A stretch of DNA of 64,000 nt from assembly GCF_900129235.1 (NCBI RefSeq), contig NZ_FQUV01000010.1, forward strand, positions 1-64,000. The letters run 5' to 3'. The notes under the pieces were generated by a model. It saw only the letters and a list, made by a program, of their open reading frames with translations. It made no database searches and was not told where the DNA came from. Origin of the DNA: Litoreibacter ascidiaceicola (GTDB taxonomy: Bacteria; Pseudomonadota; Alphaproteobacteria; Rhodobacterales; Rhodobacteraceae). The position numbers were made by a program, and so were the translations under genes. Positions 19,655 to 61,436 of the stretch are shown piece after piece (the stretch's first letter is position 1; each line of letters opens with the position of its first letter).

Positions 19655-19727
19655 ATTTGACTGATTTCCAGCCTCAAAACTTCGCCCCCTCCCAATCTAA
19701 ATGCAGGTGTGAAATCGAGGGGCCAAC

Positions 19728-22082: not shown

Positions 22083-22164
22083 AAACCTCTCATAATTGCC
22101 TCAAAAAAGCGCCACTTCTTTGTGAATCGAACGCATAGAAAATTTTTCAGGCGGAGATTTCCCA

Positions 22165-33374: not shown

Positions 33375-34652
33375 CTAGTAATCTACAGTCTTAATATCAG
33401 ATTTCCAGCGTTCTATAGATGTTTCGAAAATCAGCGCTATGAAAATCGCATTGTTCGCGATGATCAGCCAGTCAAAAGGCATTCTGAACCGAACGCGAGT
33501 GAAAAACACCGCATACGCAAGGCCAGCACCAATCCACAAACATAGCCCAAGTGTCTCAATTGGCCGGAATGGGTGTTTATGCAATAAGGCGACACGGGCG
33601 ACGAGGGGTAGGATAATGAGGCTATATGCAGCCAGCAGAATGACCTCACGCGTGCTTACATTCACTGTTGAGGCACCGCCTTCAACAGCAGTGTCGGACA
33701 TGAGCCGATTGCTGAAATCAAACCAATGCAGAAATTTTCCAAAATATAGAGAAACTGTCCGTGCCGGGTTGTTCGCCATCTCACGAAAGGCTGCACGCTT
33801 GAAAATCTTGTCGCGTTCGATCTCGGTTTTTCCGGTGATCTCAGTGTAAACATAGTCGGGAAACTTCACATCAAGACTAGTGTTATACCGTGCTTCAGGC
33901 GAGTTCCCCGCAAGTAAATTATATCCGCCGCTGGTTGCTGTCAGGATGACGACTCCAAAGGCGTTGTGATTTCGTATGCCCCAACCAGCTACAAGAAGCG
34001 CGGCACATGCGAGGAAGGCGATTAAGTGGCGCAATGGTTTGTGAGATTGAAACCAGACCCACAGGACAAATATTGGCACCAGAAGCAAAACAATCGGGAT
34101 TGTTAAGATCAGAAAGCCAAACGACAGACCAGCCAAGGCGGCGGTTACCTTTGACTGGGTCACTGTAAGGCGATCTAGAAGAAAAGCCGTCAGCACTAAC
34201 ATGAATGCAGCAAGTGTCTGCGGATAAAGTGTGAGAGAAGCATAAAGGATGACGGGCCACAGCGGAATCAGGATCACGGCCATTAAACCTGCAAGAGGGC
34301 CAGCATTGCGGCGAACCATGTGAAATACCAATAGGAGGCTCGCTCCTAGCAGCAGGTTATTAATTAGGCGTAGCTCCATGAGGCCCGCGCCCAATTTCAC
34401 AAAGGGCGTGATAAACAAGACCAGCCCCGGCGCGTGATAGGCAGTTAATTCGCCGTCTTGGTGGGCGTATATGCCGTTAAGGGCAAGGTTTTCTGCAATG
34501 GCCAAGAAGTTCGGTTCATCGAGTGATCTCACTCGATCTCCACTTAGTATGGTTACGCTGGCCAGTGCTAATACTACGAGCGCAATAATCGTGTATGCAT
34601 AGAACTGTTCGCGACCAGCCATGCCATTTCTTATTGAAGATAGAAAACGCAC
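33375..34652 (-). CDS. GT-C fold membrane glycosyltransferase
   Basis: A 425-residue protein with about ten hydrophobic helices. The first large loop contains RSLDEPNFLAIAENLA, with the DE/DExN acidic pattern of ArnT/PMT-like (GT39/GT83) enzymes that use polyprenyl-phosphate sugar donors on the periplasmic side. Later IRNHNAFG and a loop ending FRMPFDWL also fit. It probably adds a sugar to lipid A, polymer or protein. It is followed at its 3' end by the AT-rich stretch. The next gene upstream, on the same strand, is 100 bases away. Confidence 0.8.
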   Translation of the reverse strand: MRFLSSIRNGMAGREQFYAYTIIALVVLALASVTILSGDRVRSLDEPNFLAIAENLALNGIYAHQDGELTAYHAPGLVLFITPFVKLGAGLMELRLINNLLLGASLLLVFHMVRRNAGPLAGLMAVILIPLWPVILYASLTLYPQTLAAFMLVLTAFLLDRLTVTQSKVTAALAGLSFGFLILTIPIVLLLVPIFVLWVWFQSHKPLRHLIAFLACAALLVAGWGIRNHNAFGVVILTATSGGYNLLAGNSPEARYNTSLDVKFPDYVYTEITGKTEIERDKIFKRAAFREMANNPARTVSLYFGKFLHWFDFSNRLMSDTAVEGGASTVNVSTREVILLAAYSLIILPLVARVALLHKHPFRPIETLGLCLWIGAGLAYAVFFTRVRFRMPFDWLIIANNAIFIALIFETSIERWKSDIKTVDY

Positions 34653-34752: not shown

Positions 34753-35688
34753 TTAGCCTTGCTGCGGCACGCCAGTCCTATTGTAATGAGTCACGACATC
34801 CCAAACAATTTCCTGCATAAGCTTCGCAGCCTCCGGTCCCGGATCGGGTGCGGGCGTTCCATCAAACTTGACCAGATTATGGGGAAGTCCGACCGGAGAC
34901 GTCTGATACAATACCGCAAAATGAGTGAGGGCGACTAGATAAGCACCATAAGCGTTGAAGTGAATAGTGTCTGAGAACAGGTCTGTCCGAGATTTGATTG
35001 GCCCAACCCCACCGCGCTTTTCAATTTCACGCACGAAGCGTGCCATAACCTGGCCTGCGGGGATCACGTAGATCGGTTGCGGGTTATCATCAAGGTTTAA
35101 AGCAGGGCGCAGGATCGCTCCTTCCCAATACATTTCTAGGTCTCGATCGAGGCGCTCCAACCAACCTTCCGGATCATCGAGGTCGTGCCAAGTCTCGTAG
35201 AAATAAACCCTGACGTCAGGGTTACTGGCCCGCGCCTTGGTCGCCCAGTTATGCAACATTTTGGCGCTGTCCATGTATTTGATGGAGTCGCGGATTTCGA
35301 CGGCTTCGGTGAGGATGATGGCATCATATTCACCCGAAGCGATGGCCTCATGTGCGTCGCGAAATTGCGGGTGACCATTTGAATCCTCAAACCCGTTGAT
35401 AGGCGTGTCCGGATCCCAGTGGGCTTTCAAAAATGTCCCCCAACCAAGTTGGCTGTTGTAGTGATAGCGTCCGTCAGAAAGCTGAACGAGCAGCTCGGGC
35501 ATATCGTGCGATACAAGACTATGGCCCAAGTGCATCGCAGTCATTGTTTGGGGCGGCTTTGGGGCAGGCGCTTCGTACAGTGCGTCGAAGGCTTCTTGAC
35601 CCAGTGGTTTGTGGCTGCTGCTGCGCCAGACATAAAGCGCGCTAAGAACTGCAATGGTCACTGCAACTACGACAAGTGCTTTAGTCAT
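34753..35688 (-). CDS. SGNH-hydrolase-like membrane-anchored protein
   Basis: A protein of about 311 residues with an N-terminal signal-anchor (residues 3-21), so its body faces the periplasm. MHLGHSLVSHDMP (Ser57) resembles the GDSL-type nucleophile block, AIILTEAVE the third block, and SDTIHFNAYGAYL the C-terminal DxxH. That set suggests an acetyl- or other acyl-ester hydrolase acting on polysaccharide. Block I is GHSL and not GDSL, so activity is uncertain. I start at ATG 35688 after GGGG; the longer reading to 35745 adds a poor leader. Confidence 0.6.
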   Translation of the reverse strand: MTKALVVVAVTIAVLSALYVWRSSSHKPLGQEAFDALYEAPAPKPPQTMTAMHLGHSLVSHDMPELLVQLSDGRYHYNSQLGWGTFLKAHWDPDTPINGFEDSNGHPQFRDAHEAIASGEYDAIILTEAVEIRDSIKYMDSAKMLHNWATKARASNPDVRVYFYETWHDLDDPEGWLERLDRDLEMYWEGAILRPALNLDDNPQPIYVIPAGQVMARFVREIEKRGGVGPIKSRTDLFSDTIHFNAYGAYLVALTHFAVLYQTSPVGLPHNLVKFDGTPAPDPGPEAAKLMQEIVWDVVTHYNRTGVPQQG

Positions 35689-35783
35689 CCCCAAATTCCT
35701 ACTAATCTTTGACTTGTGAACGAGGATAAGCGTCAACTGTAACAACGCAACGCAGAATTGGAAGGCGCTTAGGTTTAAGTGTA

Positions 35784-36965
35784 TTGAATGTGAACTCTAG
35801 GTCGCGACTTCTTCTCATCGCCCCGGCGCCGGTCATTCCCACCGAAAACGGGTTTGTCATGGATGGCAAGTTTTTGACCGGAATGGCGTTGCACCAAAAA
35901 TTTTGGAACGGGGAAGTCGACTGTCTGCTGCGCGAGGGGGCTGAGAACATTCCCTTTGGTGCGCAAGAAATTACAACCGATCCAGGATTTGGGCTTAAAG
36001 TCCTGAAACAAGATCAAGCTATTTCAGCAGAGCATCTGGATGGTTACGACGTAGTTCTATGCAGCGTCGATGATGCAGAGAACTTGGACATTCCTAACCT
36101 TGAAATCCAGCGGCCTCCCAAGTTTTTCGTCACCATGGAATACACCCTGAAGACCCGATTGCAGGCGGCGTGGCTTGACCCCCAGCACGGGCTGGCAAAG
36201 CGCTTATACACTATGTTGTGGTTGGTTAGAAAAGAGGGGCTGCGCAAACGGTTTATTCGCAAGGCTGAAGGGTTTCAGTCGAACGGGTACCCGGCTTATC
36301 AAACTTATGCGCACTTGAACCGCGATCCGCTGCTTTACCTAGATAATCGTATGACACCCTCTTTGTTCGCGACAGAGGACGAACTAAAGGCACGCGCGGA
36401 ACGTCTCAATTCTGGCGAGCCTTTGCGGCTGATCTACTCTGGTCGACTTGAACAGATGAAAGGGGCACATGATCTGTTGCCCATAGCTTCAAAGCTACGT
36501 GGGCAGGGAGTGCGTTTCCACCTCGATATTTTTGGGGAGGGGGGGCTCAAACAACAGATTGCCCGAGGTATCACGTCTCAGGGCTTAGAGAACAGCGTGG
36601 CACTGCACGCTCCGGTCGATTTCGAGACCGAGTTGGTCCCTCATATTCGCAAAAACAGTGACATCTATCTTTGCTGCCATCGGCAATCAGACCCATCATG
36701 TACCTATCTGGAGAACATGGGGTGCGGCGTCGCCGTGGTTGGGTATGGAAACCAGATGTGGGCTGCTTTGAACCAGGCAAGCGGCTCAGGTTGGACAGTT
36801 CCGATGGGAGACATCACTGGCATTGTGGACGTGATAGCGGAGATAGATAAAAAGCGAGCAGAGATAGGTCTGAGATGTGACAAAGCGTTGGAATTTGCTA
36901 AGTCGCACGACTTCCTGATCGAGTTCGGCAAGCGCATGTCACATGTCGATCCGGACAGATCCTAA
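35784..36965 (+). CDS. GT-B glycosyltransferase (family 1/4-like)
   Basis: A 393-residue glycosyltransferase. The C-terminal half carries LRLIYSGRLEQMKGAHDLLPIA (read in two parts), FHLDIFGEGGLKQQI and the later YLENMGCGVAVVGYGN, the donor-nucleotide region of GT4-type enzymes. The usual EGxP...E motif is replaced by DPSCTYLENM. The start is TTG at 35784 or GTG at 35790. Its 3' end overlaps the convergent phosphopantetheinyl transferase by 27 bases. Acceptor and sugar are unknown. Confidence 0.8.
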   Translation: MNVNSRSRLLLIAPAPVIPTENGFVMDGKFLTGMALHQKFWNGEVDCLLREGAENIPFGAQEITTDPGFGLKVLKQDQAISAEHLDGYDVVLCSVDDAENLDIPNLEIQRPPKFFVTMEYTLKTRLQAAWLDPQHGLAKRLYTMLWLVRKEGLRKRFIRKAEGFQSNGYPAYQTYAHLNRDPLLYLDNRMTPSLFATEDELKARAERLNSGEPLRLIYSGRLEQMKGAHDLLPIASKLRGQGVRFHLDIFGEGGLKQQIARGITSQGLENSVALHAPVDFETELVPHIRKNSDIYLCCHRQSDPSCTYLENMGCGVAVVGYGNQMWAALNQASGSGWTVPMGDITGIVDVIAEIDKKRAEIGLRCDKALEFAKSHDFLIEFGKRMSHVDPDRS

Positions 36966-37583
36966 CAGGTAGTCTTCGACCAACCGCAGCTGCCCAGACA
37001 TGCTTTGAATTGTCAGGGTGCTGGGCAGATCAGCCGTAAAGTCTATACCTTCAAACTGAATATTGACGTCCTCGAATCCGATCATCTGGCTCGTTACCAG
37101 ATATTGCGCTTTATATACGGCTTCTTTGGCGCTGAAGATTTTCCTGGCGTTAAGCCCGCGATCATTGGTGGGAAGAGTTTTCAGCCAATGACGCTCCGTT
37201 GGGGTGCAGACAATGCGTTCCAAATCGGATGGAAGCGGCACTGCGGGTTCAACATCTAGTCCAATGCTGCGATGGGTAAGGCTAACAGCAGCAATACACA
37301 GCGTGTTGCAATGAGCGATAGAACCTACCAGCCCTTGTGGCCAAAGTGGTTCCCGCTGAGTTCCCGTTGATATCGGTGCTGGTGGAAGCCCTAGTTCGGT
37401 CATGGCGGCGCGAGCAGCCCGACGGCCAGCTGCGTATTCGCGACGACGTTTTGGCACCGCACTTGCAATGGCTGGATACTCGGCTTCAAGCAGACCCTGC
37501 TCTGGATCACGTGGATCAGTGATGCCTATCCCAACCTCGTCACCAAGCATCTCGCGCAGCGTGGATCGTATTTTTTCTGTCAC
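36939..37583 (-). CDS. 4'-phosphopantetheinyl transferase (Sfp/EntD type)
   Basis: A 214-residue enzyme that loads phosphopantetheine onto carrier domains. The family motifs are present: RREYAAGRRAAR (residues 48-58), GSIAHC (87-92), IGLDVEP with Asp110 and Glu112 for Mg, and FSAKEAVYK with Glu154. It overlaps the NRPS stop by four bases and is the last gene of the PKS-GT-NRPS operon, so it almost certainly activates the carrier domains of those two megaenzymes (Ser1455 and Ser1803). Confidence 0.93.
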   Translation of the reverse strand: MTEKIRSTLREMLGDEVGIGITDPRDPEQGLLEAEYPAIASAVPKRRREYAAGRRAARAAMTELGLPPAPISTGTQREPLWPQGLVGSIAHCNTLCIAAVSLTHRSIGLDVEPAVPLPSDLERIVCTPTERHWLKTLPTNDRGLNARKIFSAKEAVYKAQYLVTSQMIGFEDVNIQFEGIDFTADLPSTLTIQSMSGQLRLVEDYLLGSVRIDM

Positions 37584-40500
37584 GTCCGGTTTTGTCGCCG
37601 CGCGCGCATTTCGCGACGCTTGGCCATCGCTGCATTGCGAGCATTGTCAGGCTCGGGTCGGGCGGGGGTCTCAGAAGCCGCCTCTGGTTGAGGGGGCGCC
37701 GCAGCAGGGGCTTTGGGCATTGCTGTAACACCTGCCTTCTTCGCGACGATGGCCGACAAGGCACTTAGAGTCGGCGCGCGGAAAATGTCGGTGATCGAGA
37801 GCTTTTGCACATTCAACCGTTGGCGGATCTCGCGATGCACTTGAACAGCCAGAAGGGAATGCCCTCCAAGATCAAAGAAGTTGTCCTTCGGTGCGATGTT
37901 GGGAATGTTCAATGTATGCGACCAAATGGCAGCGATTGCTTGGGTGACTTCTTCGTCTGAGCTAATGTTGATCGGAGTGGTAGATGCCTCCTCTGCTTTC
38001 GCCGCAGCATTTAGGGTGGAACTGCTTTGGGCTTGCACTTCAGACGGCGCGGGCAAAGCGTTGCGATCTACCTTCTTGTTCGGGGACAGCGGGAAGGCGT
38101 TCATCGTCACGAAATGATGTGGCACCATGTAGTCCGGTAGGGTGTCGCGCAGATGGGTGCGCAAGGCATCTTGGTCGACGTCGTCGTTGGACAGCATGTA
38201 AGCGACCAACTGGCCTGGGCTGTCTTCCCGTGTCACCACGACTGAATGCTTGATACCTTCGAACTGGTCGATTGCGGTCTCAATCTCACCTAGTTCCACG
38301 CGATAGCCACGCAGCTTCACTTGGAAGTCAGCACGGCCCAAGAAATCAAGTGTGCCATCTGGTTGCCAACGCGCGATATCGCCGGTGCGATACATCAAGC
38401 CGGCACCAGCCCTGTCGGGATCGGCGTCATTAACGAATGGATCGCGAACGAAGCGTTCGGAGGTCAGGTCAGGGCGCTTGAAATAACCACGGGTGACCCC
38501 GGCGCCTGCGATATACAACTCTCCTGGCACGCCTATTGGGCGTGGTTCCATGTTGTCATCCAACACGTAAACTTGGGTATTTGCGATTGGAGTCCCGATA
38601 GACACCACGCCTTCGCCGCCAGTAGCGGTCTGGGTCGTGGACCAAATAGTTGTCTCGGTCGGGCCATACATATTTTCCACGTGACCGCCCGTGAGTGTCT
38701 TCAACTCCGTGGCCAACGCGCCGGGTAAGGCTTCGCCACCCACCATCATCACATCCAGCTGGGGCAGGGCTTCGCGGGCCTCGTCTGTCATCACCAGCAT
38801 TTGCGCCATAGAGGGTGTGCATTGCAGATGCGTAACTTTGTGGTGCAGGATTTGGGCTGCGATGGAATAGTCCTGTGCTGTCGTCGCGACGTCTGCATTT
38901 GAAAGCTTCACCACCTCAGCCAGAGGTCGCAGCCCTTCAAGGACCTGCTCCACATTGATGCCGTAGTCGATAAGGCAGGCGATTTCGGTTACGCCAATGG
39001 CTTTGACCTCCTCGACCCGCTCCATGGCTTCCTCGATGGTGCCGAACAGGCCGCTATCGTTGAAATAGCGCTCAAAAGCAAAATCCAAAATGCCTTCTAG
39101 CTCGTCCTCGGTCAGAGACCCAAGATCGAGCTGCATGGGGTTTTCTACACCCTTTGGCTTCTTGAAAGCGGGGAACGCCCATGCGTATTGCTTGATCAAT
39201 CCCGCAGCCGCGCGAAGATAATCCTTCATTGGTTCGCGTGCGATTTCTCGCGCCTGCTCGCGAGTCTCGGCCAAGAAGGAGTGCAGCATCAAAGTGACTG
39301 TGAAATCATCAGGGTTATGACCAGCATCACGTAAAGCTTGATGATAAAGAATGATCTTCTCACCTACTTCATCCACGCTTTGGCCCAAAAGATGCGTCAG
39401 CACATTGCAGCCGTGAACGCCCGCTTCTTTCCAAGTCTCGGGATTGCCTGCGGTCGTGACCCAAACATCAAGCTTCTTTGACACCGGCCGGGGCTGCGTA
39501 AGGACGTTGTGCATCTCGCCATTCTCACGCGGGAAAGAAATTTCCTCACCGGACCAAAGCTTGCGTAGGTCAGCGATTGCTTCGAACATCGCGGGCTTGT
39601 TTTTGGGTGGCGTGTTCTCTGGACGCAACACGAAGTCATCAGGTTGCCAGCCGGATGCAATCGCGAGACCGGCTTTCCCGTTCGTGAGGTTGTCGACCAC
39701 CGCCCATTCTTCGGCAATGCGGGCGGTGTGATGGAGTGGGGCCACGCAGGAGCCGGCCCGTACGCCAATATTCTGGGTCACGGCCGCGACCGCCGCACCG
39801 GTGACGGATGGGTTAGGATAGGGGCCGCCGAAGGCGTGGAAGTGGCGCTCCGGGGTCCAAACAGCACAAAATCCGTTTTGATCCGCGAATTTCGCACCTT
39901 CAAGAAGCGTACGGTACTTGTCGCGACCAACGCCGTCGTCGTTACCCCAATAGAATAGGCTGAACTCCATACCTCCAACAGCGCGCCCTGACGGGCTATC
40001 TGTCGCCCCGAGAGTTCGATTATCATCCGAACTGATGACAACCTTGAAGCCGCGGCTGAGGGTCCAAAATAGCTCCAGCACCGATATGTCGAACGACAAT
40101 GACGTCACTGCCATCCAGACGGACCCGTCTTCATGGGCGATGCGCCCATCCATACCTGTAAAGAAATTGGCGACGTTGCGGTGTTCAACCATCACGCCTT
40201 TAGGCTTGCCGGTCGATCCGGACGTGTAGATCAAATAGGCTAATCCTTCTCCGATCACGCCACTTTCGGGGTTTTCCGAAGGGGCAGAATCCAGCGATGG
40301 GGCGTTATCAACGCACAAAACTCTGGCGGCATGCTTTGGCAATAATTCCGCAAGATTAGTATCTGTGATGATCACATTAGTTCCGCTGTCCTCAATATAA
40401 TGAGCGGTGCGATCTGTGGGGTAACTTGGGTCCATTGGCAGATAGGCGCCGCCCGCCTTCAAGATGGCCAGCGCGGCAATGACAAGATCAGCGGATCGGG

Positions 40501-42220
40501 GCAAATGTAGGCCGACAACTACCTCAGGTGCTACTCCCATGTCTGTTAACACTTGGGCCATTTTATTAGCACGGGTGTTAAGCTCACTGTAGGTCAGTGT
40601 CTCGCCTTCAAACGATAGAGCTTCAGCGTTGGGCGTTTTGGCGACTTGGGCTTCGAACGCCTGGTGGATGCAAAGGTCCTCTGGGAATTCGGTGGCAGTC
40701 GCGTTCCAGTTATAGAGAACTTGCTGGCGCTCTGCTTCGGGCAGTATCGTTGGCGCTTTGCCTGCCGCTATCTGATGGATCATGTGAGAGAGCCGATCAC
40801 CCATCAAGTCTACCGCCTCTGGGCCGATCTTTCCGATGTCCGCGAATAGAGTGCCATCTGACGTCAATGTCAGCGCAGTTCCTTCCAAATGTGATTGCTT
40901 TGACAGACCCAATGCAGGTGTTGCGGGCCTGGCTAGACTGGGGATGCGAGCAATAAGGTCAGAGGCAAATGGCCCCATAGCCTGCGCGGCGGCAAGATCG
41001 TCTTCGATGTTGGAAGCTTGGACAGGAACCCAAGGGTTCAGGTATCCGGTATGATCAGCCGTCAATTCTGCGGCGATTGTGATGTCCTCGTTGTCTCCCA
41101 ATTGCAAAGCGAGGGCAGCCATCGCCGATAGGCTCTGTGTGCGTGTGACCCCTTCGGGTAAGTCAAGCGTACGGGACTTGATTTCACCCTGCGAGGCTGA
41201 TGCATCAATTAGGGGCAATGTAGCGAGGGTAGCGCCTTCAAGTCGTGCACGCCATTTGGCCTCGGATTTTAATGTTTGCTTCAGCGCTTCCGACTGAGTT
41301 TTCGATAAAACAGCATCGGGGGAAGGTAGCATATCGCCCGGCTTTGCGATCTGTGAGGGATCGACCGTTTCGCCGTCACACCTACGAAGCCCGTGAAGGG
41401 TTACCGGGGCCGTGCCTGTGGCGACAGTTATACTGTCATCACTGACGTCTAGAACCGTACCAACAGGGCTATCGGATGCAGCTTTTCCGGCTGTTGCTCG
41501 GGACACCAGAAAAACTTGGCTGTTCACCTCAATCTTGGGGCAGGTGAGAGGGTTCCAGTAGCCGCCATGATCCAGCGCGCGCACCAATGTCGTGATGCTA
41601 CGCGCCGAGCGCGAGAAGTCGAGCCGACCCGCAGCAGGTGGGCGGTCGTTCTTGGCAAAATAGCTTCGTTTGGAGAGGTCTTGTTTCGTCAATAGCGGCT
41701 GTTCGGTGGCCAATTTATCTATAACGGTCGAGAACCCTTCAATCGCGGCGCCATAGCATTTGGTGTTCAGGGTTAGGGTCGTCTCGTTCGGCGCGATGTC
41801 AAAAAATTGCTGAGTTAGCAAATCGCCTTCGTCGACGCCGCTAGCGATCATATGCCAGCTGATTCCATATTCGGTTTCACCATTAATCAACGCCCAAGCC
41901 GGAGCGTTTAAACCGGCGTAACGGGGTAGTGGGCCATCGTGGAAGTTTACCGCGCCACGTGCAGGGATCGCGAGCACGTCGTCGGGGATCATGTCGAGAT
42001 TGGCGATGGAAAGCAGCCAGTCGAAAGACATTCCGTTCATTTCCTCAGCCAGATTGGCGTCCGCAGAAATGGCCTGAATATCCGCGCCCTTTGCCCAAGC
42101 CGAGATATCGGTGTTACGCGTGACTACTGCGGGTACTTGGTGCCCCGCCTCAAGCAACATTTCCGCGCACTGAATGGCGAGGGATTCATTGCCGATGATA
42201 ATCGCGCTGAATTGAGACAT
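37580..42220 (-). CDS. NRPS: formyltransferase - C remnant - A(luciferase-like insert) - T
   Basis: A 1546-residue synthetase. Residues 1-240 resemble 10-formyl-THF-dependent formyltransferases (VNFHDGPLPRYAG with Asn92/His94, GVDEGD with Asp130). About 310-500 looks like the C-terminal half of a condensation domain with no HHxxxDG. The adenylation domain starts near 515 (A3 YTSGSTGKPKG, A4 Asp711, A5 NMYGPTETT, A8 near 1295-1315). A luciferase-like flavin monooxygenase domain (about 750-1095) is inserted between A4 and A5. A carrier domain follows (DNFFDLGGHS, Ser1455) and an Arg-rich tail. There is no thioesterase. Asp711 suggests an alpha-amino acid substrate. Confidence 0.92.
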   Translation of the reverse strand: MSQFSAIIIGNESLAIQCAEMLLEAGHQVPAVVTRNTDISAWAKGADIQAISADANLAEEMNGMSFDWLLSIANLDMIPDDVLAIPARGAVNFHDGPLPRYAGLNAPAWALINGETEYGISWHMIASGVDEGDLLTQQFFDIAPNETTLTLNTKCYGAAIEGFSTVIDKLATEQPLLTKQDLSKRSYFAKNDRPPAAGRLDFSRSARSITTLVRALDHGGYWNPLTCPKIEVNSQVFLVSRATAGKAASDSPVGTVLDVSDDSITVATGTAPVTLHGLRRCDGETVDPSQIAKPGDMLPSPDAVLSKTQSEALKQTLKSEAKWRARLEGATLATLPLIDASASQGEIKSRTLDLPEGVTRTQSLSAMAALALQLGDNEDITIAAELTADHTGYLNPWVPVQASNIEDDLAAAQAMGPFASDLIARIPSLARPATPALGLSKQSHLEGTALTLTSDGTLFADIGKIGPEAVDLMGDRLSHMIHQIAAGKAPTILPEAERQQVLYNWNATATEFPEDLCIHQAFEAQVAKTPNAEALSFEGETLTYSELNTRANKMAQVLTDMGVAPEVVVGLHLPRSADLVIAALAILKAGGAYLPMDPSYPTDRTAHYIEDSGTNVIITDTNLAELLPKHAARVLCVDNAPSLDSAPSENPESGVIGEGLAYLIYTSGSTGKPKGVMVEHRNVANFFTGMDGRIAHEDGSVWMAVTSLSFDISVLELFWTLSRGFKVVISSDDNRTLGATDSPSGRAVGGMEFSLFYWGNDDGVGRDKYRTLLEGAKFADQNGFCAVWTPERHFHAFGGPYPNPSVTGAAVAAVTQNIGVRAGSCVAPLHHTARIAEEWAVVDNLTNGKAGLAIASGWQPDDFVLRPENTPPKNKPAMFEAIADLRKLWSGEEISFPRENGEMHNVLTQPRPVSKKLDVWVTTAGNPETWKEAGVHGCNVLTHLLGQSVDEVGEKIILYHQALRDAGHNPDDFTVTLMLHSFLAETREQAREIAREPMKDYLRAAAGLIKQYAWAFPAFKKPKGVENPMQLDLGSLTEDELEGILDFAFERYFNDSGLFGTIEEAMERVEEVKAIGVTEIACLIDYGINVEQVLEGLRPLAEVVKLSNADVATTAQDYSIAAQILHHKVTHLQCTPSMAQMLVMTDEAREALPQLDVMMVGGEALPGALATELKTLTGGHVENMYGPTETTIWSTTQTATGGEGVVSIGTPIANTQVYVLDDNMEPRPIGVPGELYIAGAGVTRGYFKRPDLTSERFVRDPFVNDADPDRAGAGLMYRTGDIARWQPDGTLDFLGRADFQVKLRGYRVELGEIETAIDQFEGIKHSVVVTREDSPGQLVAYMLSNDDVDQDALRTHLRDTLPDYMVPHHFVTMNAFPLSPNKKVDRNALPAPSEVQAQSSSTLNAAAKAEEASTTPINISSDEEVTQAIAAIWSHTLNIPNIAPKDNFFDLGGHSLLAVQVHREIRQRLNVQKLSITDIFRAPTLSALSAIVAKKAGVTAMPKAPAAAPPQPEAASETPARPEPDNARNAAMAKRREMRARRQNRT

Positions 42221-42225
42221 GGGAT

Positions 42226-43230
42226 CTACTCTCCGATTTTAGTGTCGAGTTCAGGTGATTGGTTATGGGTCGTGCCCGTAATAGAGCCGATAATGTTGGC
42301 AAAATCGTGTTTTGCCATGGAACGCAGGAAGTTTGGGGACACATCACGCGTTTTTCCGGTCAACTTGCAGCGCAGCCAATGCAGACTTCCCGCACTGAGG
42401 TGAACCAAAGTGGCGAAGCCAGCATAGGTGAGGCCATAGTTCTTCTGGAAGTAATGAAAACGGGATTCAAACCAGTAATCTGGCACGCGGTCCCACGTCT
42501 TCATACCGGTAGACACGGAGCCCAAGTGCATTACCCGGCTTTCATACACATAGTGTATAGAATAATTTGATGTCCGCGCGCGCGCGCACAAATCAGCTTC
42601 TTCAAAGTATAGAAAGAATGTCTCATCAAAGAGCCCTATTTCATCAAGCACACTTCGGCGCATCATCATGCTGGCCCCGGCAAGCCAATCTACAGATGCT
42701 GTCCCGACGATATCTTCGCGTGGAACCCTGTAAGACTTTAGCAGCTTTGTTATAGGACCGAAGCGGATGGCGCTTTCAAGTTCGCTGAGGATTGAGGGAA
42801 ACCGGAATGTAGTTGTGTGCCGATCACCGTCTTCACCAAAGATATAGCTACCCACAAAGCCAGTTTTTGGGTGGGTTTGCAAAAAGTTGTAAAGTTCAGT
42901 GATCGCTTCGGGTTCGGGAAATGCATCAGAATTTAGAATGTAGATGAAATCAGGTGCTGTGCCATCCGACATTCCCGCACGGATTCCAACATTATTCCCT
43001 GCTCCGTATCCGCCATTGTGCCCTGATCTAAGGACGCGGATGCCTTCCCAACGTTCGGCCTCGACATGGTCACGGATATTCTCAAAAGACCCATCCTGAC
43101 TGTCGTTATCGACTATTGTGATTTCGCCAGGCAGGCCCTGCATGGCGATCCGTGCCGCTTGAACCGAGCGCAGGGTCATATCGGCGGTTTTGTAATTAAG
43201 AATGATCGTCAAAACAGTGGGTGCTGGCAT
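42226..43230 (-). CDS. Family 2 glycosyltransferase inside the PKS-NRPS operon
   Basis: A 334-residue GT2 enzyme: ILNYKTADMTLRSVQAA at the start, IVDNDSQDGS, the donor/metal site YILNSDAFPEP and the later LYFEEADLCARAR, all typical of rhamnosyltransferase-like GT2 proteins. It lies six bases after the PKS and five bases before the NRPS, so it is part of the same transcript. It may glycosylate the polyketide-peptide product, or it may be an EPS gene captured in the operon. A (CG)6C run (42575-42587) lies within the codons for ARART. Confidence 0.88.
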   Translation of the reverse strand: MPAPTVLTIILNYKTADMTLRSVQAARIAMQGLPGEITIVDNDSQDGSFENIRDHVEAERWEGIRVLRSGHNGGYGAGNNVGIRAGMSDGTAPDFIYILNSDAFPEPEAITELYNFLQTHPKTGFVGSYIFGEDGDRHTTTFRFPSILSELESAIRFGPITKLLKSYRVPREDIVGTASVDWLAGASMMMRRSVLDEIGLFDETFFLYFEEADLCARARTSNYSIHYVYESRVMHLGSVSTGMKTWDRVPDYWFESRFHYFQKNYGLTYAGFATLVHLSAGSLHWLRCKLTGKTRDVSPNFLRSMAKHDFANIIGSITGTTHNQSPELDTKIGE

Positions 43231-43236
43231 GGGTAT

Positions 43237-46200
43237 TTACTCTGCGGCTTGCTTGGTCGGTGCGGCTTTCGTTGAGGTATGTGAGTCACGGCTCGCATCT
43301 TCGAGCACCTGCTTAATACGGGCTGCTAGAACGCGAACATTGGGTTCTAGTACCATTGAATCGTGATCGCCTGGCACTTCGAACACCTCGACCTTGGGAG
43401 CAAATTTTGTCCAATCGTTGTCACTATACAGATATGTCCGATATTCGCTGACCAGCTTGTCACCAATGATCCAAGTCGGAACCAATGGTGGGCGGAATAA
43501 GGTCAAGGGCCCTGACCATGGGGCAATTTCATACGACCCAACGCTTTCAAGGAAGGCGTCTTGGATGGCGACATTGTGGAACTGCTGGCCTTCCTCGGCG
43601 GTGTCATCGTTCCCGCGACGTTTTTGGATTTCCCACGCGATGCGGTCTTTGGCCCAATTAACGATGTAAGACACGCCGCCCTTACGCAGGTCCATCCACT
43701 TGATGCGCAATTTATCCGCTCGAGAAATGGATGGTCGAACGGGAAGAGGAGTGTCGAGCATTACCACGGCGGAGACGATTTCACCTGCAGCAGTAAGCTG
43801 GTGAGCAATCTCATACGCGGTAATCCCGCCCCCAGAGAACCCGCCCACCATATAGGGGCCTTCGGGTTGAACTTGCCGCATTTCCGCGATGTAGTCACGT
43901 GCAGCCTCAGTGATCGTACGGTGTGGTTCTTCGCTGCCAAACAATCCACGGGCTTGTAGGCCATAGAATGGCCGATCATTTCCAACCAAATGTGCCAGAT
44001 GGCGCAGGTTTAATACGTTCCCAAACATGCCCGCGACCAAGAAGAATGGCGACTTGGTGCTGCTTTCGCCGGTATGCATTGGCACCAGATGGGTGAAGCG
44101 ACGTTCCGGCGCGGCTTGGGCTATATCTTCGCTGTCGGCATCCGTCTCATTGTTAACTCCCTGCGCCGCAATGAGCGCAGCGCATTTGCGGATTGTAGGG
44201 GCCTCGAACAAAACCGAGATCGGGAAGTCTACCTGCCAAGCTTTGCGTATTTGTGCAAACAGGCGCACGGCGATCAATGAGTGGCCACCTAGATCGAAGA
44301 AGCTGTCTTCGACACCGATTTCATCGACACCCAACAGGTCTTGCCAGAAAGCGGCCAGCCGCTCTTCGATTGGGCCCTCTGGTTTTATGAATTCGGAATC
44401 AAGTTCAGGGCGTTCAAATTTCTGTCCCCGGCCTTGAGCGCCGTCATCAACTTGTCCTGCTTGTTCTATGAGCGCATCCAGATTGAGGGATGAGACAATG
44501 ACCTGACGCTGCGGACTCGAGAGTGCGCGCAAAAACAGCGCCGCGCCTTCATCCGCGCGAATGCCTTGGGTCAAATTGTGTCGTAGTCGCTCCTCAGCTG
44601 GGGATAGTGGCCGCATGCCGCCATCGGCCGGAGTCGCTGAAGCGGTCGAGGGAGGGGTGATCGCGAAGCCAGCATCTGTGTCCATCCGCCGGATTGAGAA
44701 GTCGTGGATTTCAACGCAAATTGTGCCGTCGGGCGCAGCGATAGTGATGTCAAAACTCGCCGTTTCGCTATCTGCCCGATTGTCCGCGCTATTGCGGACC
44801 CAAGAGACAATATTTGACGGTAAGGGCCCAAATACCTTCACTGAGCGATAAGACACTGGCACCCAGAGATGCGCCGCCTCGTAGCCTGCGATCAGATTCA
44901 TGGCCCAACCCGTTGCAATATCCATCAGGGCAGGGTGTAGATGGTAACCTGCTTTAGCATCTCCTGCTGCAGCATCTGGTAAAGCGAGTGTCGCGAGACC
45001 TTCACCGTCGCCTAGGGTGGTTGATTGTAATACGCGCCAGCGTGGGCCGAATTTAAGATGAACCTCTTGCGGTGACGCCATCCAACCTGCATCTCCGGCG
45101 TCGACCTTGTTCGAACAGCGGGCCTCGATGGCGGCGATATCTAAAGGGGCAGGGGTGGAAATTGGTAATAACGAGAGGCTGGCTTGCGCGTTTTGCTCAA
45201 ATTGCCCGAGTTCACCACTTTCTACACTCAGGTCATACCCAAGATCTGTGCGTAGCAGGCCCACACGAATATCGCGGGGCGCATGGTCGGAGACAGTCAA
45301 CGGGCGCAGGAAGTAGAGATCACGGATCTCAAAAGCAGAGGTCTCACCTTGCGCGCGCAGAGCTTCTGTTGCCAGTTCAAGGTATCCCGTTCCAGGTACC
45401 AACGCATCACCTGCCATTGTTCGGTGATCGTCTAGGAACCAGCGCTCCGAGACGCGGTATTCGGCTCTAAAGCAGCGGTTTCCAACGGTATCAAACGTCG
45501 CCTCGTCCAGCATTGGCGCATTGATCGGGGTCACCGGTGGCGGGGTCGCTTTGCCCAACCGACTGTCCATTGCGTCCGCTGCCATGCCTACATCAGCCCA
45601 GATGCCCCAGTTGATAGCTAACACGCGGGTTTGCCCACCGCTGCGCGACTTGGCATATGCGTTGAGGTATTCATTTGCAGCAACGTAATCGACTTGACCG
45701 ATCGGGGCCGTCGCCGTGGAGCTTGATGAAAACAGAACCATCCAATCCAAAGAGCCATCGGGAAAGACTTCGTGAAGAACCTGCGTGCCATGAATTTTCG
45801 GCGCAAATACGTCCTCAATCGAAGTAACTGTTTTGGCCATGATCGGATCGTCATCAATTTGACCAGCAGCATGGATGATACCGTCGACTTTACCGAAGTG
45901 TTCTTCCAGCGTGGACTTTGCCAGCCGCATATCTTCGACATTGGACACGTCGGCAACTAACGTCAGGACTTCGCCGCCCATAGCTTCAAGCTCGCGAATA
46001 GCTTCAATCCGGCGAACTATGGCGGTACCCGGGGCGTTGTTTTGCAACGCCTGGTCCCAAGTGTCGCGAGGGGGTAACGGGCTGCGAGCAAGCAGCGCTA
46101 TTTTGGCGTTACAACGCTCGATCAACTCGTGCGCAAGGGTCAGGCCGATGCCACCAAAGCCGCCCGTCAGCAGGTACACCCCGCCATCTTTCAGAACGGG

Positions 46201-49200
46201 TAATTCGCTATCAAGATCAGGAAGGTTGGTTGTCTGATAACCAAGCGCATAGCGTTTATCGTTGCGGATCAGGGCAGTTCCGCATGTCGGTGCTGCAAGA
46301 ACCTCTTCCAAAATCTGATCTACAATACGCGATTGGTCGGTCTTGTCAGGCCCGCGCCTGAGACGCCCTTGACGAAGCGGCTCGATATCCAGTTGCGACA
46401 CGGTCATTCCAGAGAACTCGCGCGGTATAACACGCACAGGTCCTGCGACCGTTGCTTTTTCAGGGTAGGGGAGTTCTTCGTTCGCGCGTTGCATTGCGCC
46501 AGAACTAAGCACGGTAAGGTGTATTGGCATCGGCAGGTCTTCGCCCCCAATCGCCTGTGCTAGAAATAGAAGACTATAAAATCCTTGCTCCTGAACGCGG
46601 TGAAAGAAGCTTGATCCCGGTCGGAAGCTTTCGTCCTTAGTTATCGTCCAGGCATGGACGATGCGCGTTGGAACCAGGTCGCGCGTGTTCAGGTCATGGA
46701 TTAGCGCATCATAGCTTTCGCGACCTCGTTCAGGGGCGATGATGTAGCCCATTTCCCCGACGCGCGCAAAAGTGTCACCGGGTTTAACGGTCACCACTTT
46801 ATGATCTGCCGAGCGCAATTTGGCGGCGACATCTGCTCCAAGCCCTGCGTCATCCTCGAAAATCAGCCATGTTTGTTTGGTGGCTTCCGATAGATCACCC
46901 TTGACGTCGATATCGCACTCCGCGTAGCGCGGGGTCCACGCAGGGCGATAGCTCCATTCCTCAACGTCGTCCGTTCGGCTTAGCCATTGAGCATCACTGT
47001 CTAATGCAGGTCTCCCCGGCTCTATAAAATAGGAGGATTGCTGGAAAGCATATGTTGGTAGCGGTATGTGTAAACGGCGTGCCTCGCCCCAGAACTGGTC
47101 CCAATCAAATTGGCCGCCGACGGCCCAGATACGGCCCAGCATTGCAAGGAAATATGCATCGTCAGGCGTGTCATCGTCAGGATGACGCAGGCTGGAGATC
47201 ACCTGATTGGCGGTAACCTTGCCGTGTTGACCAGCCAAAGATGACAACGCCTTCCCAGGTCCAACCTCGATGAAAACGCGCGCGGGTGCGTCGGCCAAAG
47301 TTGTCAGGCAATCGGAGAAATGTACGGTGCCGCGTAGGTGGGCCACCCAGTAGTCAGGATCTTGAGCCTGCGCGTCCGTTATGTAATCGCCGGTGCGGTT
47401 TGACGTGAACGGAATTTTCGGCGGGTTCAGGGGAATCGAGCGCAAGTAGTCGCCAAATTTTTTCAAAATCGGCTCTAACATGCGCGAATGGGCCGCGATG
47501 TCGATCGGGATGCGCTGGAAGTCGATGCTTCGTTGGACCAACCGCGCTTCCAAAGCGTCCAACTCGGCTTGTGGTCCAGTAGCGACGCTTAAATTTGGCG
47601 CGTTGACCGCTCCCAAATCAAGGTCATCACCTAACAGAGGCTCCAACTCATCAGCCGATAGAACGATGGACAACATGCCGCCCGCTGGCACCGTGTCGAA
47701 CAACTGGCCCCGGAGATGCACAAGGCCAATGCAGTCCTCGAACGACATTACTCCAGCAACGCAAGCGGCAGTGTTTTCCCCCATGGAATGACCAACCAGT
47801 GCAGAAGGCTCAACCCCCCAGGACATCCAAAGCTGCGCTAGCGCATATTCGGTGATCATGATGAGGGGCAACTGCACGGACGGCTTTTTCAACGTCGTAT
47901 TTGCGGCCTCAATCGCATCCAATTCCGGCAGCCAAAGCGCACGGATATCATAATCTAGTTTTGGTTGAAGAACGTCGAGACCACGATCCATCCATTCGGC
48001 GAATACTGGTTCTGTCTCATAAAGATCGCGCGCCATTCCGGCATATTGTGCGCCACCACCGGGGAACATGAAAACGTAGTCAGGGTCTTCGCCAACCACG
48101 GTATGCGAAAAGACGCGGCGCGGATCATTCTCTTCCAGAAGCTTGGCGGCGTCTGCGTGGGTTTCAGCCACTACAACCCTACGGCGTTCAAATCCGCGAC
48201 GGCGTTCTTTCAACGTCCAAGCGATATCCGCGAGGGGTTGATCCGGATTGGTGCGTAGGTAAGAGGCAAGATTGGCGGCGTTGGCTTCAAGCGCAGCCTT
48301 GCTGCGCCCCGATACGGTCAAGATTTGGAACGGCCAATCGGATTCTTCGGAAGCAGCGCGTTTGGGGGCTTCTTCCAATACCAAATGTGCGTTGGTGCCC
48401 CCGACACCAAGTGAATTCACTCCTGCGCGGCGCGGTCCATTGTGAGAGACCCAAGGGCTAAGGGTGTCATTGACAGAGAATGGTCCGCTTTCGAAATCAA
48501 TCGCAGGGTTTGGTTTCTCATATCCCAAGGATGGTGGAATCTCGCGGTGATGAAGCGAAAGCGCCGTTTTGATCAATCCGGCCGCGCCAGCCGCGGTGTC
48601 GAGGTGTCCAATGTTGGTTTTAACAGACCCAATCTTGCAAAACTGGGTCTCATCTGTGGTTTCCTCGAAGGCTTCGGTCAACGCCGCCACTTCGATTGGA
48701 TCGCCCAAATAGGTTCCTGTCCCGTGGCATTCGACGTAATCGATCGTGTCAGCAGTTATATTTGCCATGGCCTGGGCCTCGGCGATCGCTGCCGCCTGAC
48801 CGTCGACTGACGGGGCTAAGTACCCTGCTTTGGCAGCCCCGTCATTGTTGATGGCAGAGCCTTTGATAACCGCCCAGATGTGGTCGCTGTCTGCGATGGC
48901 ATCCGTGAGACGTCGTAGGACCACAACACCGGCCCCTGATCCGAAGACGGTACCTTCCGCGCGGTGGTCGAACGCGTGGCAGTGCCCGTCGGGAGACAGC
49001 ACTTCGCCTTCCTTGAATATGTAGCCGCGATCTTGAGGTAGCTCGATTGTGACACCGCCAGCAAGCGCTGTATCACATTCGCCTGTCATCAAGGCCTGCG
49101 CCGCATAGTGGGTCGTAACCAGTGATGTAGAGCATGCGGTCTGCATGGTCACTGACGGGCCTTTTAGGTTCAGAACGTGGCTCAAACGGGTAGACAGGAA

Positions 49201-49686
49201 GTCCTTGTCATTGCCGGTATGGCGAAGCAGGAACATGCCCACATCGTTAACAAGATCTGGGTTCGAGCAGATGTTAAAGTAGAAATAGCTTCCCATCCCG
49301 CAGCCGGCGTAAACCCCGATTGGGCCTTTGGCGTTTTCGGGCATATGTCCAGCATTTTCCAGAGCTTCCCAAGAGACCTCCAAAAAGCGCCGATGTTGCG
49401 GATCCATGATTGCGGCTTCTTTGGGCGAGAGGCCGAAAAACTCTGCATCAAAATGTGCGAACCCATCCAGAGGGGCCGCTGCTGGGACATAGTCGTCACG
49501 ATTTATGAGGTGTTGGGCTTCTCCAGCCGCGAGCAATTCTTCGGCGGTGTAATGGCGGATGGACTCAATTCCATTACGCAGATTTTGCCAGTACTCGTCT
49601 ATTGTGTGAGCGCCCGGAAAGTGTCCGGCCATTCCGACGATGGCTATGTCGCTCTCAGAGATGAGGTTCTCGGGGTCAAAACTCAT
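43237..49686 (-). CDS. Type I polyketide synthase KS-AT-KR-DH-ACP-TE
   Basis: A 2149-residue synthase. KS is about 10-440 (TACSTS Cys185, VECHGTGT His321, KTNIGH His361). AT is about 538-830 (GHSMG Ser634; specificity region IAAHS, neither classical malonyl nor methylmalonyl). KR is about 1165-1370 (TGGFGGIG, Ser1320 region, Tyr1334, Asn1338). DH is about 1410-1670 (His421-equivalent at residue 1421, HRTMAGDALVPG, Asp1589). ACP carries Ser1803 (DLGGHS). TE is about 1880-2130 (GGFSGGG Ser1951, Asp1978, His2108). KR precedes DH, and no ER or methyltransferase is present. It is first in its operon, with the TE providing release. Confidence 0.93.
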   Translation of the reverse strand: MSFDPENLISESDIAIVGMAGHFPGAHTIDEYWQNLRNGIESIRHYTAEELLAAGEAQHLINRDDYVPAAAPLDGFAHFDAEFFGLSPKEAAIMDPQHRRFLEVSWEALENAGHMPENAKGPIGVYAGCGMGSYFYFNICSNPDLVNDVGMFLLRHTGNDKDFLSTRLSHVLNLKGPSVTMQTACSTSLVTTHYAAQALMTGECDTALAGGVTIELPQDRGYIFKEGEVLSPDGHCHAFDHRAEGTVFGSGAGVVVLRRLTDAIADSDHIWAVIKGSAINNDGAAKAGYLAPSVDGQAAAIAEAQAMANITADTIDYVECHGTGTYLGDPIEVAALTEAFEETTDETQFCKIGSVKTNIGHLDTAAGAAGLIKTALSLHHREIPPSLGYEKPNPAIDFESGPFSVNDTLSPWVSHNGPRRAGVNSLGVGGTNAHLVLEEAPKRAASEESDWPFQILTVSGRSKAALEANAANLASYLRTNPDQPLADIAWTLKERRRGFERRRVVVAETHADAAKLLEENDPRRVFSHTVVGEDPDYVFMFPGGGAQYAGMARDLYETEPVFAEWMDRGLDVLQPKLDYDIRALWLPELDAIEAANTTLKKPSVQLPLIMITEYALAQLWMSWGVEPSALVGHSMGENTAACVAGVMSFEDCIGLVHLRGQLFDTVPAGGMLSIVLSADELEPLLGDDLDLGAVNAPNLSVATGPQAELDALEARLVQRSIDFQRIPIDIAAHSRMLEPILKKFGDYLRSIPLNPPKIPFTSNRTGDYITDAQAQDPDYWVAHLRGTVHFSDCLTTLADAPARVFIEVGPGKALSSLAGQHGKVTANQVISSLRHPDDDTPDDAYFLAMLGRIWAVGGQFDWDQFWGEARRLHIPLPTYAFQQSSYFIEPGRPALDSDAQWLSRTDDVEEWSYRPAWTPRYAECDIDVKGDLSEATKQTWLIFEDDAGLGADVAAKLRSADHKVVTVKPGDTFARVGEMGYIIAPERGRESYDALIHDLNTRDLVPTRIVHAWTITKDESFRPGSSFFHRVQEQGFYSLLFLAQAIGGEDLPMPIHLTVLSSGAMQRANEELPYPEKATVAGPVRVIPREFSGMTVSQLDIEPLRQGRLRRGPDKTDQSRIVDQILEEVLAAPTCGTALIRNDKRYALGYQTTNLPDLDSELPVLKDGGVYLLTGGFGGIGLTLAHELIERCNAKIALLARSPLPPRDTWDQALQNNAPGTAIVRRIEAIRELEAMGGEVLTLVADVSNVEDMRLAKSTLEEHFGKVDGIIHAAGQIDDDPIMAKTVTSIEDVFAPKIHGTQVLHEVFPDGSLDWMVLFSSSSTATAPIGQVDYVAANEYLNAYAKSRSGGQTRVLAINWGIWADVGMAADAMDSRLGKATPPPVTPINAPMLDEATFDTVGNRCFRAEYRVSERWFLDDHRTMAGDALVPGTGYLELATEALRAQGETSAFEIRDLYFLRPLTVSDHAPRDIRVGLLRTDLGYDLSVESGELGQFEQNAQASLSLLPISTPAPLDIAAIEARCSNKVDAGDAGWMASPQEVHLKFGPRWRVLQSTTLGDGEGLATLALPDAAAGDAKAGYHLHPALMDIATGWAMNLIAGYEAAHLWVPVSYRSVKVFGPLPSNIVSWVRNSADNRADSETASFDITIAAPDGTICVEIHDFSIRRMDTDAGFAITPPSTASATPADGGMRPLSPAEERLRHNLTQGIRADEGAALFLRALSSPQRQVIVSSLNLDALIEQAGQVDDGAQGRGQKFERPELDSEFIKPEGPIEERLAAFWQDLLGVDEIGVEDSFFDLGGHSLIAVRLFAQIRKAWQVDFPISVLFEAPTIRKCAALIAAQGVNNETDADSEDIAQAAPERRFTHLVPMHTGESSTKSPFFLVAGMFGNVLNLRHLAHLVGNDRPFYGLQARGLFGSEEPHRTITEAARDYIAEMRQVQPEGPYMVGGFSGGGITAYEIAHQLTAAGEIVSAVVMLDTPLPVRPSISRADKLRIKWMDLRKGGVSYIVNWAKDRIAWEIQKRRGNDDTAEEGQQFHNVAIQDAFLESVGSYEIAPWSGPLTLFRPPLVPTWIIGDKLVSEYRTYLYSDNDWTKFAPKVEVFEVPGDHDSMVLEPNVRVLAARIKQVLEDASRDSHTSTKAAPTKQAAE

Positions 49687-49972
49687 TACAAAACCTTAAC
49701 GCATTTGGCGCTTAGAAACTGCTAAAAGATAAGATTTGGTTACTTGGCGGCGAATATAGGGAATTTAAATGGATTATTGCACAATAACCTGATGATTGCG
49801 CAGTATTTTTACAAAAGAAAGCCTAGAAATGCATGCAGTGCGCGATTAATGCTGGATAAGCATATAAACCCATCTGGAGAGGTACTTCCGACGGCTATTC
49901 CGGTTCGCAGGATAGCAAACTAGCCGGATTCTTGACTGTGAGGCTTTGCATGCTGCGTGCGAAGCAACATCG
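49687..49972 (-). promoter_or_regulatory. Leader/promoter region of the PKS operon
   Basis: This gap of nearly 300 bases upstream of the PKS start contains no gene. It is richer in A and T than the flanking coding sequence, especially at about 49740-49830, so the promoter of the PKS-GT-NRPS-PPTase operon should lie here. I could not identify a confident -35/-10 pair or a lux-type box. The hairpin at its far end terminates the preceding gene. Confidence 0.4.
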
Positions 49973-49996
49973 AAAAAGCGTTATACTACGCTTTTT
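49973..49996 (-). terminator. Intrinsic terminator of the VPLPA-CTERM gene
   Basis: AAAAAGCG (49973-49980) and CGCTTTTT (49989-49996) form a perfect eight-pair stem with an eight-base loop. The TAG stop of the minus-strand VPLPA-CTERM gene lies in the loop (49986-49988), so the last codons form the 5' arm of the hairpin. The T-run is within the 3' arm on the minus strand. It separates this gene from the PKS operon downstream. Confidence 0.65.
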
Positions 49997-50789
49997 GCGG
50001 CAAGCCGGTCTGGGCAGGGACCAGAATGCGACGCCTGCCTGCAAGATGTGTAAGTCCTAGGCCCGCCAAGGCAATCAGAAGGAACGACAAGCTCGTTGGT
50101 AGCGGAACCGGTGATAAATCACCCTCATTGCGCATCACGTCAATATCGGACCGGAAGCCGAGATCACCCAATATGCCGCCACCCAGCAGCATCGAGAAAT
50201 CTAAGGACATCGTCGTAAACAAATCACCAACTGGAGCATCGCCCACCAAGTTTACTATCCCAGTGTAGGTTGCCGTTATCGCCCCTTCTAAGTTTTCGTA
50301 CCCAGAGTAAAGCTCAAACGGGAAACCGAAACTGGAACCCTGAGTAGACTCGCCGTTCGGGTCGTTGTCGTCAAAAATGAAGGTCGTATCAAATACAGCA
50401 CTGGCTGGTGCCAAATCGATGGAAAGAGATGTAAGAACACTGGTCGTGGTCATCTCAAACCCGTCCCAACTCATGAACAAATCAGTGTCCGCCCCACGCG
50501 CCCAGCCATTGATGCTACCATAGGTGCTACCGTCAGGATCGGTGTAAATCCGAGGATCACCTTCCCAAGTGATTTGCTCACTGGTTCCGTCTGCGTAGGT
50601 CGCTGTTATCATGGCGCCATCAAGATCGGTGCCGTCTGTACCGGTATCATCCCGCAAACCATGGGTCGATTCGATGAGCTCAGCGCCACTACGAACAATA
50701 TCAATTGTCGCCGCTTCAACCGCATTAAAGTTCAATGAAAACACCGCAGTCGCGGTAAACGTCGCTGTCAATAACCTAAATATCACCAC
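49986..50789 (-). CDS. VPLPA-CTERM surface protein
   Basis: A 267-residue secreted protein. A Sec signal peptide (residues 1-26, ending VEAA) is followed by a beta-rich body and a C-terminal sorting signal: VPLPTSLSFLLIALAGLG, then the basic tail GRRR. This tripartite signal is the alphaproteobacterial VPLPA-CTERM form, processed by an exosortase and linked to EPS production. The body has repeated TATYADG and TATYTG beta motifs and few cysteines. No enzyme motif is seen. It lies between the secondary-metabolite operon and the exosortase-type EPS genes. Confidence 0.88.
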   Translation of the reverse strand: MVIFRLLTATFTATAVFSLNFNAVEAATIDIVRSGAELIESTHGLRDDTGTDGTDLDGAMITATYADGTSEQITWEGDPRIYTDPDGSTYGSINGWARGADTDLFMSWDGFEMTTTSVLTSLSIDLAPASAVFDTTFIFDDNDPNGESTQGSSFGFPFELYSGYENLEGAITATYTGIVNLVGDAPVGDLFTTMSLDFSMLLGGGILGDLGFRSDIDVMRNEGDLSPVPLPTSLSFLLIALAGLGLTHLAGRRRILVPAQTGLPQKA

Positions 50790-50932
50790 TTACTCCAAAT
50801 ACTACAGGACGCGAAACTTGAGCAGATTATGGCCCAAAAATGTAAATCTTTCAACTTTTCGTGGCACGAGCTGTTTTAAATTAATCAGTAGCGAGACAGA
50901 TCAGCACGGTGTTTTTCAAGCGACATCGTGTT

Positions 50933-57710: not shown

Positions 57711-57735
57711 CGGTCATTTCCAGCTCGAACAGAGA

Positions 57736-61325: not shown

Positions 61326-61436
61326 ATTCTATGCGTGACCTCACACGTTAGGCACAGACAAAACTGGAACAGGGCTTGCTGGCTGCTATGCTAGGCAGGC
61401 CCCGTTTATTTTTGGGATCGACCAAGTGAGCTTTTC

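Follow-up and report, generated by a model that had tools for sequence, protein, structure and literature searches.

A four-gene operon on the minus strand of a 64,000-nucleotide stretch of the Litoreibacter ascidiaceicola genome (positions 1 to 64,000 of contig NZ_FQUV01000010.1, referred to as the window) belongs to a cluster family already known from roseobacters, in which a polyketide synthase (PKS) and a nonribosomal peptide synthetase (NRPS) are accompanied by a glycosyltransferase (GT) and a phosphopantetheinyl transferase (PPTase). What is new here is that this cluster travels with surface-polysaccharide genes, which suggests where its product is used. From sequence comparisons we tentatively propose, with confidence just short of an even chance, that the assembly line would supply a surface-polysaccharide system with a small acid that is not a sugar. 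Should this hold, roseobacters would decorate polysaccharide by means of PKS/NRPS chemistry.

The operon occupies positions 36939-49686, with gaps of 6 and 5 bases and one 4-base overlap, exactly as described in a first-pass annotation of the window. Pfam and NCBIfam searches also bore out the domain make-up read there: ketosynthase (KS), acyltransferase (AT), ketoreductase (KR), dehydratase (DH), acyl carrier protein (ACP) and thioesterase (TE) domains in the PKS; a family 2 glycosyltransferase (GT2); formyltransferase (FT), adenylation (A) and thiolation (T) domains in the NRPS, with a luciferase-like monooxygenase (LLM) in the A domain; and an Sfp-type activator. The operon and the gene of an SGNH-like protein, one gene away, comprise the following features:

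43237-49686, minus strand: type I PKS, KS-AT-KR-DH-ACP-TE, 2149 residues (Pfam and NCBIfam)
42226-43230, minus strand: GT2 glycosyltransferase, 334 residues (Pfam Glycos_transf_2)
37580-42220, minus strand: NRPS loading unit, FT-A-T with the LLM inserted in A, 1546 residues (Pfam and NCBIfam)
38912-39964, minus strand: LLM domain inside the NRPS A domain, TIGR04020, MupA/Atu3671 family (NCBIfam)
37583-37648, minus strand: basic C-terminal tail of the NRPS, putative docking peptide to the PKS (tail pattern and charge)
36939-37583, minus strand: Sfp/PptT-type PPTase, 214 residues, 4PPT_N and ACPS (Pfam and NCBIfam)
34753-35745, minus strand: SGNH-like protein (conserved motif residues)

We rejected the idea that the cluster is new, because the same four genes have already been published as conserved in roseobacters (PMC5014874, PMC4337385). 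The NRPS/PKS/glycosyltransferase/PPTase cluster was reported in 28 of 57 Roseobacter genomes, its product not being characterised (PMC4337385), and a PKS, a glycosyl transferase, an NRPS and a PPTase were listed with unknown product in Leisingera sp. JC1 (PMC5014874). Both papers concern other strains, and their available excerpts mention neither a polysaccharide system nor an SGNH-like protein. An NRPS-like/T1PKS hybrid with low similarity to known clusters, present in 18 of 37 species (PMC10584327, 2023), is probably the same cluster, judging from the printed gene sizes. The JC1 scaffold is part of our own set of loci (L126), and all four gene types were found on it, the PKS in part. Martens et al. 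is cited in this literature on the conserved Roseobacter hybrid PKS/NRPS cluster. The first-pass annotation had known of no product described for this exact combination of genes; our literature search, whose coverage lacked most subscription journals so that a report may exist, indeed found none, but the four-gene cluster itself was already published. Although the cluster occurs widely in a major bacterial family, papers of 2015 and 2016 gave its product as unknown. A literature search aimed at a polysaccharide link listed one paper, on a different subject.

Association with polysaccharide genes in the family

A TIGR04020 match over the curated cut-off was found in 105 of 295 Rhodobacteraceae genomes, that of the window included. 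These were counted as operon-positive, which is an upper figure for true operons because the LLM frames of G263 and G244 are short (363 and 392 residues); G114 and G147 were counted as negative despite LLM matches split over pieces. Among the other 104 positive genomes, 76 yielded 77 loci of 20 kb (G126 gave two). In 69 of the 77 the GT gene immediately precedes that of the NRPS, a PPTase was recognised in 64 (with a profile built from the window copy and 63 relatives' copies), and 55 combine the upstream GT with a PPTase directly downstream and a PKS on the same strand. Four of the 14 loci with the GT in place and no positional PPTase (L095, L066, L105 and L047) matched a PPTase in a separate search. 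Since the operon is conserved across relatives, we rejected chance or an annotation artefact as its explanation. One copy, L047 (from G009), has its PKS and NRPS split over several open reading frames (ORFs) and appears decayed or mis-assembled.

Relatives of the chain-length determinant protein (PCP), Wzx, Wzy or CpsD were found in 64 of the 77 operon loci and in none of 20 control regions; the controls had been positioned manually in 20 of these genomes and the queries were taken from operon loci, chosen for recurring there, so that the comparison shows recurrence and not unbiased enrichment. One PCP family (query from L062) was detected in 92 of the 295 genomes, 89 of them operon-positive; 77 of the 92 carry it no more than 20 kb from the LLM and its query also came from an operon locus, so the association is partly plain linkage. 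By comparison, the control trait pufM, present in 121 genomes of which 42 are operon-positive, showed no association (Fisher p 0.81; such tests ignore shared ancestry). Either the PCP or the SGNH-like protein accompanies the operon in 100 of the 105 positive genomes (the two together in 44, only the PCP in 45 and only the SGNH-like protein in 11). Search thresholds were the curated cut-off for the LLM, 1e-8 for SGNH, 1e-30 for PCP and 1e-50 for pufM. The sole other genome of the genus sampled, G171, has no LLM over cut-off, no SGNH-like protein and no PCP.

The SGNH-like protein was found in 58 of the 295 genomes, 55 of them operon-positive. Distances to the LLM were counted in 51 of these, leaving out the operon-less G114, G147 and G155 and the operon-positive G023, G062, G111 and G247, where the match is weak. 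The two genes lie at most 6 kb apart in 36 genomes, farther apart on the same contig in five (13, 17, 165, 233 and 583 kb) and on different contigs in ten, some of which are fragmented assemblies. The SGNH gene thus co-occurs with the operon even at 165, 233 and 583 kb on the same contig, in three genomes. We propose that it is an extra part of the operon's system. SGNH hydrolases and acyltransferases are marked by a nucleophile serine motif and by DxxH; the product of 34753-35745 carries both, and its GHSL (G74-L77), D259 and H262 are invariant in 23 aligned sequences. A hydrophobic N-terminus, seen by eye, makes export of the protein likely. The PDB search gave no convincing match, and similarity to DUF4886 was weak and below the cut-off. 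Some relatives encode, beside the operon, a larger protein (for example of 852, 854, 965 or 986 residues; 18434-20992 in both L180 and L176, among others) that consists of a second SGNH-like part and a long further part; that of L180 had no Pfam match.

The SGNH link was also examined beyond the family. Among 385 genomes sampled from the class, 11 carried the LLM, five of them from the same family, and four carried the SGNH-like protein, all of them same-family and LLM-positive; it was found in none of the six LLM-positive genomes from outside the family. Among outside-family loci collected separately, strong SGNH matches (51 and 53%) occurred in L173 (Devosia limi) and L177 (Rhizobium sp. Leaf371), and weak ones (23-26%) in L170, L171 and L190. 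Given the six negative genomes, the SGNH link is a family-level result with two examples beyond. The operon had been called self-contained, and it does hold its own PPTase, loading unit and extension and release unit. The term is nevertheless doubtful, because across the family the operon tends to be accompanied by a polysaccharide system and an SGNH-like protein, and the polysaccharide setting may be functional.

Domains and conserved residues of the assembly line

Conservation was assessed on alignments of 75 NRPS and 65 PKS sequences, window included; L038 (about 40% identical and differently arranged) was excluded, as were NRPS of 1400 residues or fewer and PKS of 2000 or fewer, many of them truncated by the 20-kb stretch. 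Pfam placed the PKS domains in the order KS (12-389), AT (538-815), KR (1169-1365), DH (1391-1670), PP-binding (1775-1839) and thioesterase (from 1903). The catalytic residues C185, H321 and H361 of the KS, S634 of the AT, Y1334 of the KR, H1421 and D1589 of the DH, and S1951, D1978 and H2108 of the TE are each present in 65 of 65 sequences. The protein therefore has all the parts of a reducing type I PKS module with intact active sites. The xDD pattern of the KR was found in 46 of the 65, its second D in all, and by the usual xDD rules the KR would be B-type in most. The best solved relatives are chains that their depositors named 'Polyketide synthase' (8xju, 8xjy and 8xjz).

In the NRPS, Pfam recognised the N- and C-terminal parts of the formyltransferase (53-166 and 196-292), a first part of the A domain (522-735), the LLM (761-1078), the rest of the A domain and a PP-binding domain (1427-1490). 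The LLM scored 467 bits against TIGR04020 (curated cut-off 244.45). The active site of formyltransferases consists of N-x-H plus D; the corresponding N92 is present in 75 of 75 aligned sequences and H94 and D130 in 74 each, so that an FT with its active-site residues is fused to A and T in the manner of a start module. The best solved relative is the linear gramicidin synthase LgrA, and the 'Peptide synthetase' chain (depositors' name) of 8xjz was also matched. The residues lining the A-domain pocket (D711, I712, L715, Q1133, M1159, G1161, M1184, I1192, W1193 and K1383), which were matched by eye with the pocket positions of GrsA, are almost fully conserved except at 1159 (M in 40, L in 21, F in 9 and Y in 5), which points to a single substrate. 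The pocket resembles a glycine code, and by this likeness glycine is the candidate substrate.

The C-terminal tail of the NRPS follows a basic pattern in 71 of 75 sequences, the pattern having been written after the tails had been viewed; one of the misses, L074, is truncated by a contig end. The last 22 residues carry a net charge of at least +3 in 74 of 75, and visual inspection showed comparable basic tails in 16 outside-family loci. We infer that this tail is a docking peptide to the PKS.

Proposed product and competing readings

Several known systems provide precedents for such a line. Glycine-loading FT modules occur in conglobatin and oxazolomycin (PMC4504003). As in the window, the lines of LgrA, CongA and OzmO begin with formyltransferase, A and T domains, and CongA, whose A domain is predicted to take glycine, feeds a PKS (CongA and OzmO: PMC4504003); the window's NRPS differs from all three by the LLM inserted in its A domain. 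A monooxygenase domain in a glycine NRPS module, with chemistry proposed to give alpha-hydroxyglycine, is found in solanimycin SolF, myxothiazol and melithiazole (PMC10204066). There, glycine is added to a growing chain, whereas the window's NRPS, which carries a formyltransferase, would load it as the first unit. Finally, MupA, which shares the TIGR04020 family with the window's LLM, hydroxylates an ACP-bound thioester; it is a stand-alone enzyme that required a beta-keto thioester (PMC10953402).

From the conserved domains and these precedents (conglobatin, the glycine modules with monooxygenases, MupA) we infer the chemistry, the attachment to polysaccharide and the role of the glycosyltransferase as follows. 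The PPTase would activate both carriers and the NRPS would load glycine, which the FT domain would N-formylate from formyl-tetrahydrofolate. The inserted LLM would then hydroxylate the alpha carbon, drawing on reduced flavin from other sources in the cell. After docking of the basic NRPS tail on the PKS, the KS and AT would add one C2 unit, the KR and DH would convert it to an alpha,beta-unsaturated acid, and the TE would release this acid. The expected free product is 4-formamido-4-hydroxybut-2-enoic acid (145.0375 Da) or its lactone, or instead 4-oxobut-2-enoic acid (100.016 Da) should the hydroxylated unit collapse. The GT may act on the polysaccharide or join it to the product, and the SGNH-like protein may transfer or remove the acyl group outside the cytoplasm. 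This keeps the order first suggested for the operon, in which the NRPS loads and the PKS extends and releases, but its 'one or more malonyl extensions' are best read as one, because there is one module with one carrier. A more specific version, in which a formylated, oxidised glycine-derived acyl unit is a non-sugar building block of an exopolysaccharide (EPS) common in the family and a dedicated SGNH-like enzyme places or trims it outside the cytoplasm, is possible and we hold it with clear reserve. A polysaccharide system and a second gene that is sometimes unlinked direct the search for the product to the polysaccharide, beyond the culture extract alone.

A number of observations weigh against the proposed reading, besides the choice of queries and controls, the plain linkage of the PCP and the shared ancestry mentioned above. 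No enzyme is evident that would move the carrier-bound acyl group to a sugar, and the literature search found no paper for the glycine code. The beta-keto requirement of MupA does not fit a loaded glycine. Thirteen of the 77 loci, including the close relative L106, have no PCP, Wzx, Wzy or CpsD relative within their 20 kb, the GT gene does not immediately precede that of the NRPS in eight, and the tested PCP is absent from the genome of the window, which does, however, encode a different chain-length protein. The SGNH-like protein is missing from 50 of the 105 operon-positive genomes, as well as from the six outside-family genomes of the class sample. Seventeen loci of a set of 80 lie outside the family; in four of the 16 examined for NRPS/PKS layout and tails (all but L191), namely L167, L173, L175 and L194, no PKS was seen beyond carrier matches in the stretch examined.

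Some of these points would suit a free diffusible metabolite, such as a signal, a defence compound or a metal binder, with a polysaccharide neighbourhood that is merely historical. We regard this as a serious though somewhat unlikely alternative. The 13 loci without polysaccharide relatives and the six LLM-positive genomes without the SGNH link are consistent with it; so is the TE at the end of the PKS, a domain that commonly releases a free acid, and the cluster has been treated as a secondary-metabolite cluster (PMC5014874, PMC10584327). However, PCP and SGNH-like protein co-occur with the operon within the family, unlinked SGNH genes included, and the Pfam scan found no exporter domain in the four operon genes. 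An iterative PKS could also be envisaged. Its product would be a lipid-like unsaturated chain, started or headed by formyl-glycine, that would anchor or prime the polysaccharide in the manner of RkpA of the rhizobial K-antigen. A single module with KR and DH, the polysaccharide genes alongside and the GT within the operon all agree with this idea, which we nevertheless consider improbable: Pfam detected neither an enoylreductase (ER) domain nor a second carrier in the PKS, and the docking-like NRPS tail suggests a single hand-over.

That tail, conserved as it is, likewise argues against two separate products of the NRPS and the PKS, with the formylglycyl unit alone being used on sugar, to our mind the least probable of the readings. 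The absence of a condensation domain from the NRPS in the Pfam scan and the position of the GT gene between the NRPS and PKS genes speak for such a separation, as do the 16 outside-family loci insofar as the two genes lie on opposite strands in eight and four have no PKS in the stretch examined. On the other hand, both proteins are encoded in 12 of the 16, and the NRPS is followed by the PKS on one strand in L183, L188, L192 and L193.

Genomic setting of the operon

The operon had also been placed between capsule genes and exosortase EPS genes, and capsule-type and exosortase EPS genes do flank it, the exosortase XrtD itself lying beyond the window. To the left lie genes of an ABC-2 export system and of the WbsX/RgpF type. 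On the right are genes for a methyltransferase, a polysaccharide deacetylase, a glycosyltransferase, an epimerase, a CpsD-like protein, a chain-length determinant, an ATPase, a sugar phosphotransferase and a PrsT-like protein. The surrounding features are:

35784-36965, plus strand: group 1 glycosyltransferase gene between the PPTase and SGNH genes, converging with the former (relatives in 6 of 77 loci)
49986-50789, minus strand: protein ending in a VPLPTS-type sorting signal, encoded immediately upstream of the PKS (sequence)
56868-60167, minus strand: EPS genes for a CpsD-like autokinase, a chain-length determinant (PCP) and an XrtA-type ATPase (NCBIfam, below curated cut-offs)
60585-63899, plus strand: EPS genes for a WbaP-like sugar phosphotransferase and a PrsT-like TPR protein (NCBIfam, below curated cut-offs)
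Contig 64059-64739, beyond the window: Wza-like gene
Contig 68632-70005, beyond the window: Wzx-like gene
Contig 75203-76801, outside the window: exosortase XrtD, VPLPA-CTERM type (630 bits, cut-off 400)

XrtD, PCP, autokinase, ATPase and sugar phosphotransferase together make up an exosortase EPS locus, the parts other than XrtD being recognised by Pfam or by NCBIfam matches below cut-off. The product of 49986-50789 is likely a substrate of XrtD, which is encoded on the same contig. A scan of 36500-50950 gave six promoter-like and 12 terminator-like sites, both counts being below the shuffled mean, and an Rfam scan of the window gave no match. Between about 31700 and 33370 no listed ORF exceeds 103 residues, within the part of the window that is poorest in G+C (0.469 for 32001-34000). 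Two tandem RTX-repeat proteins are encoded on the plus strand at 19728-24513, the second with subtilase and P domains.

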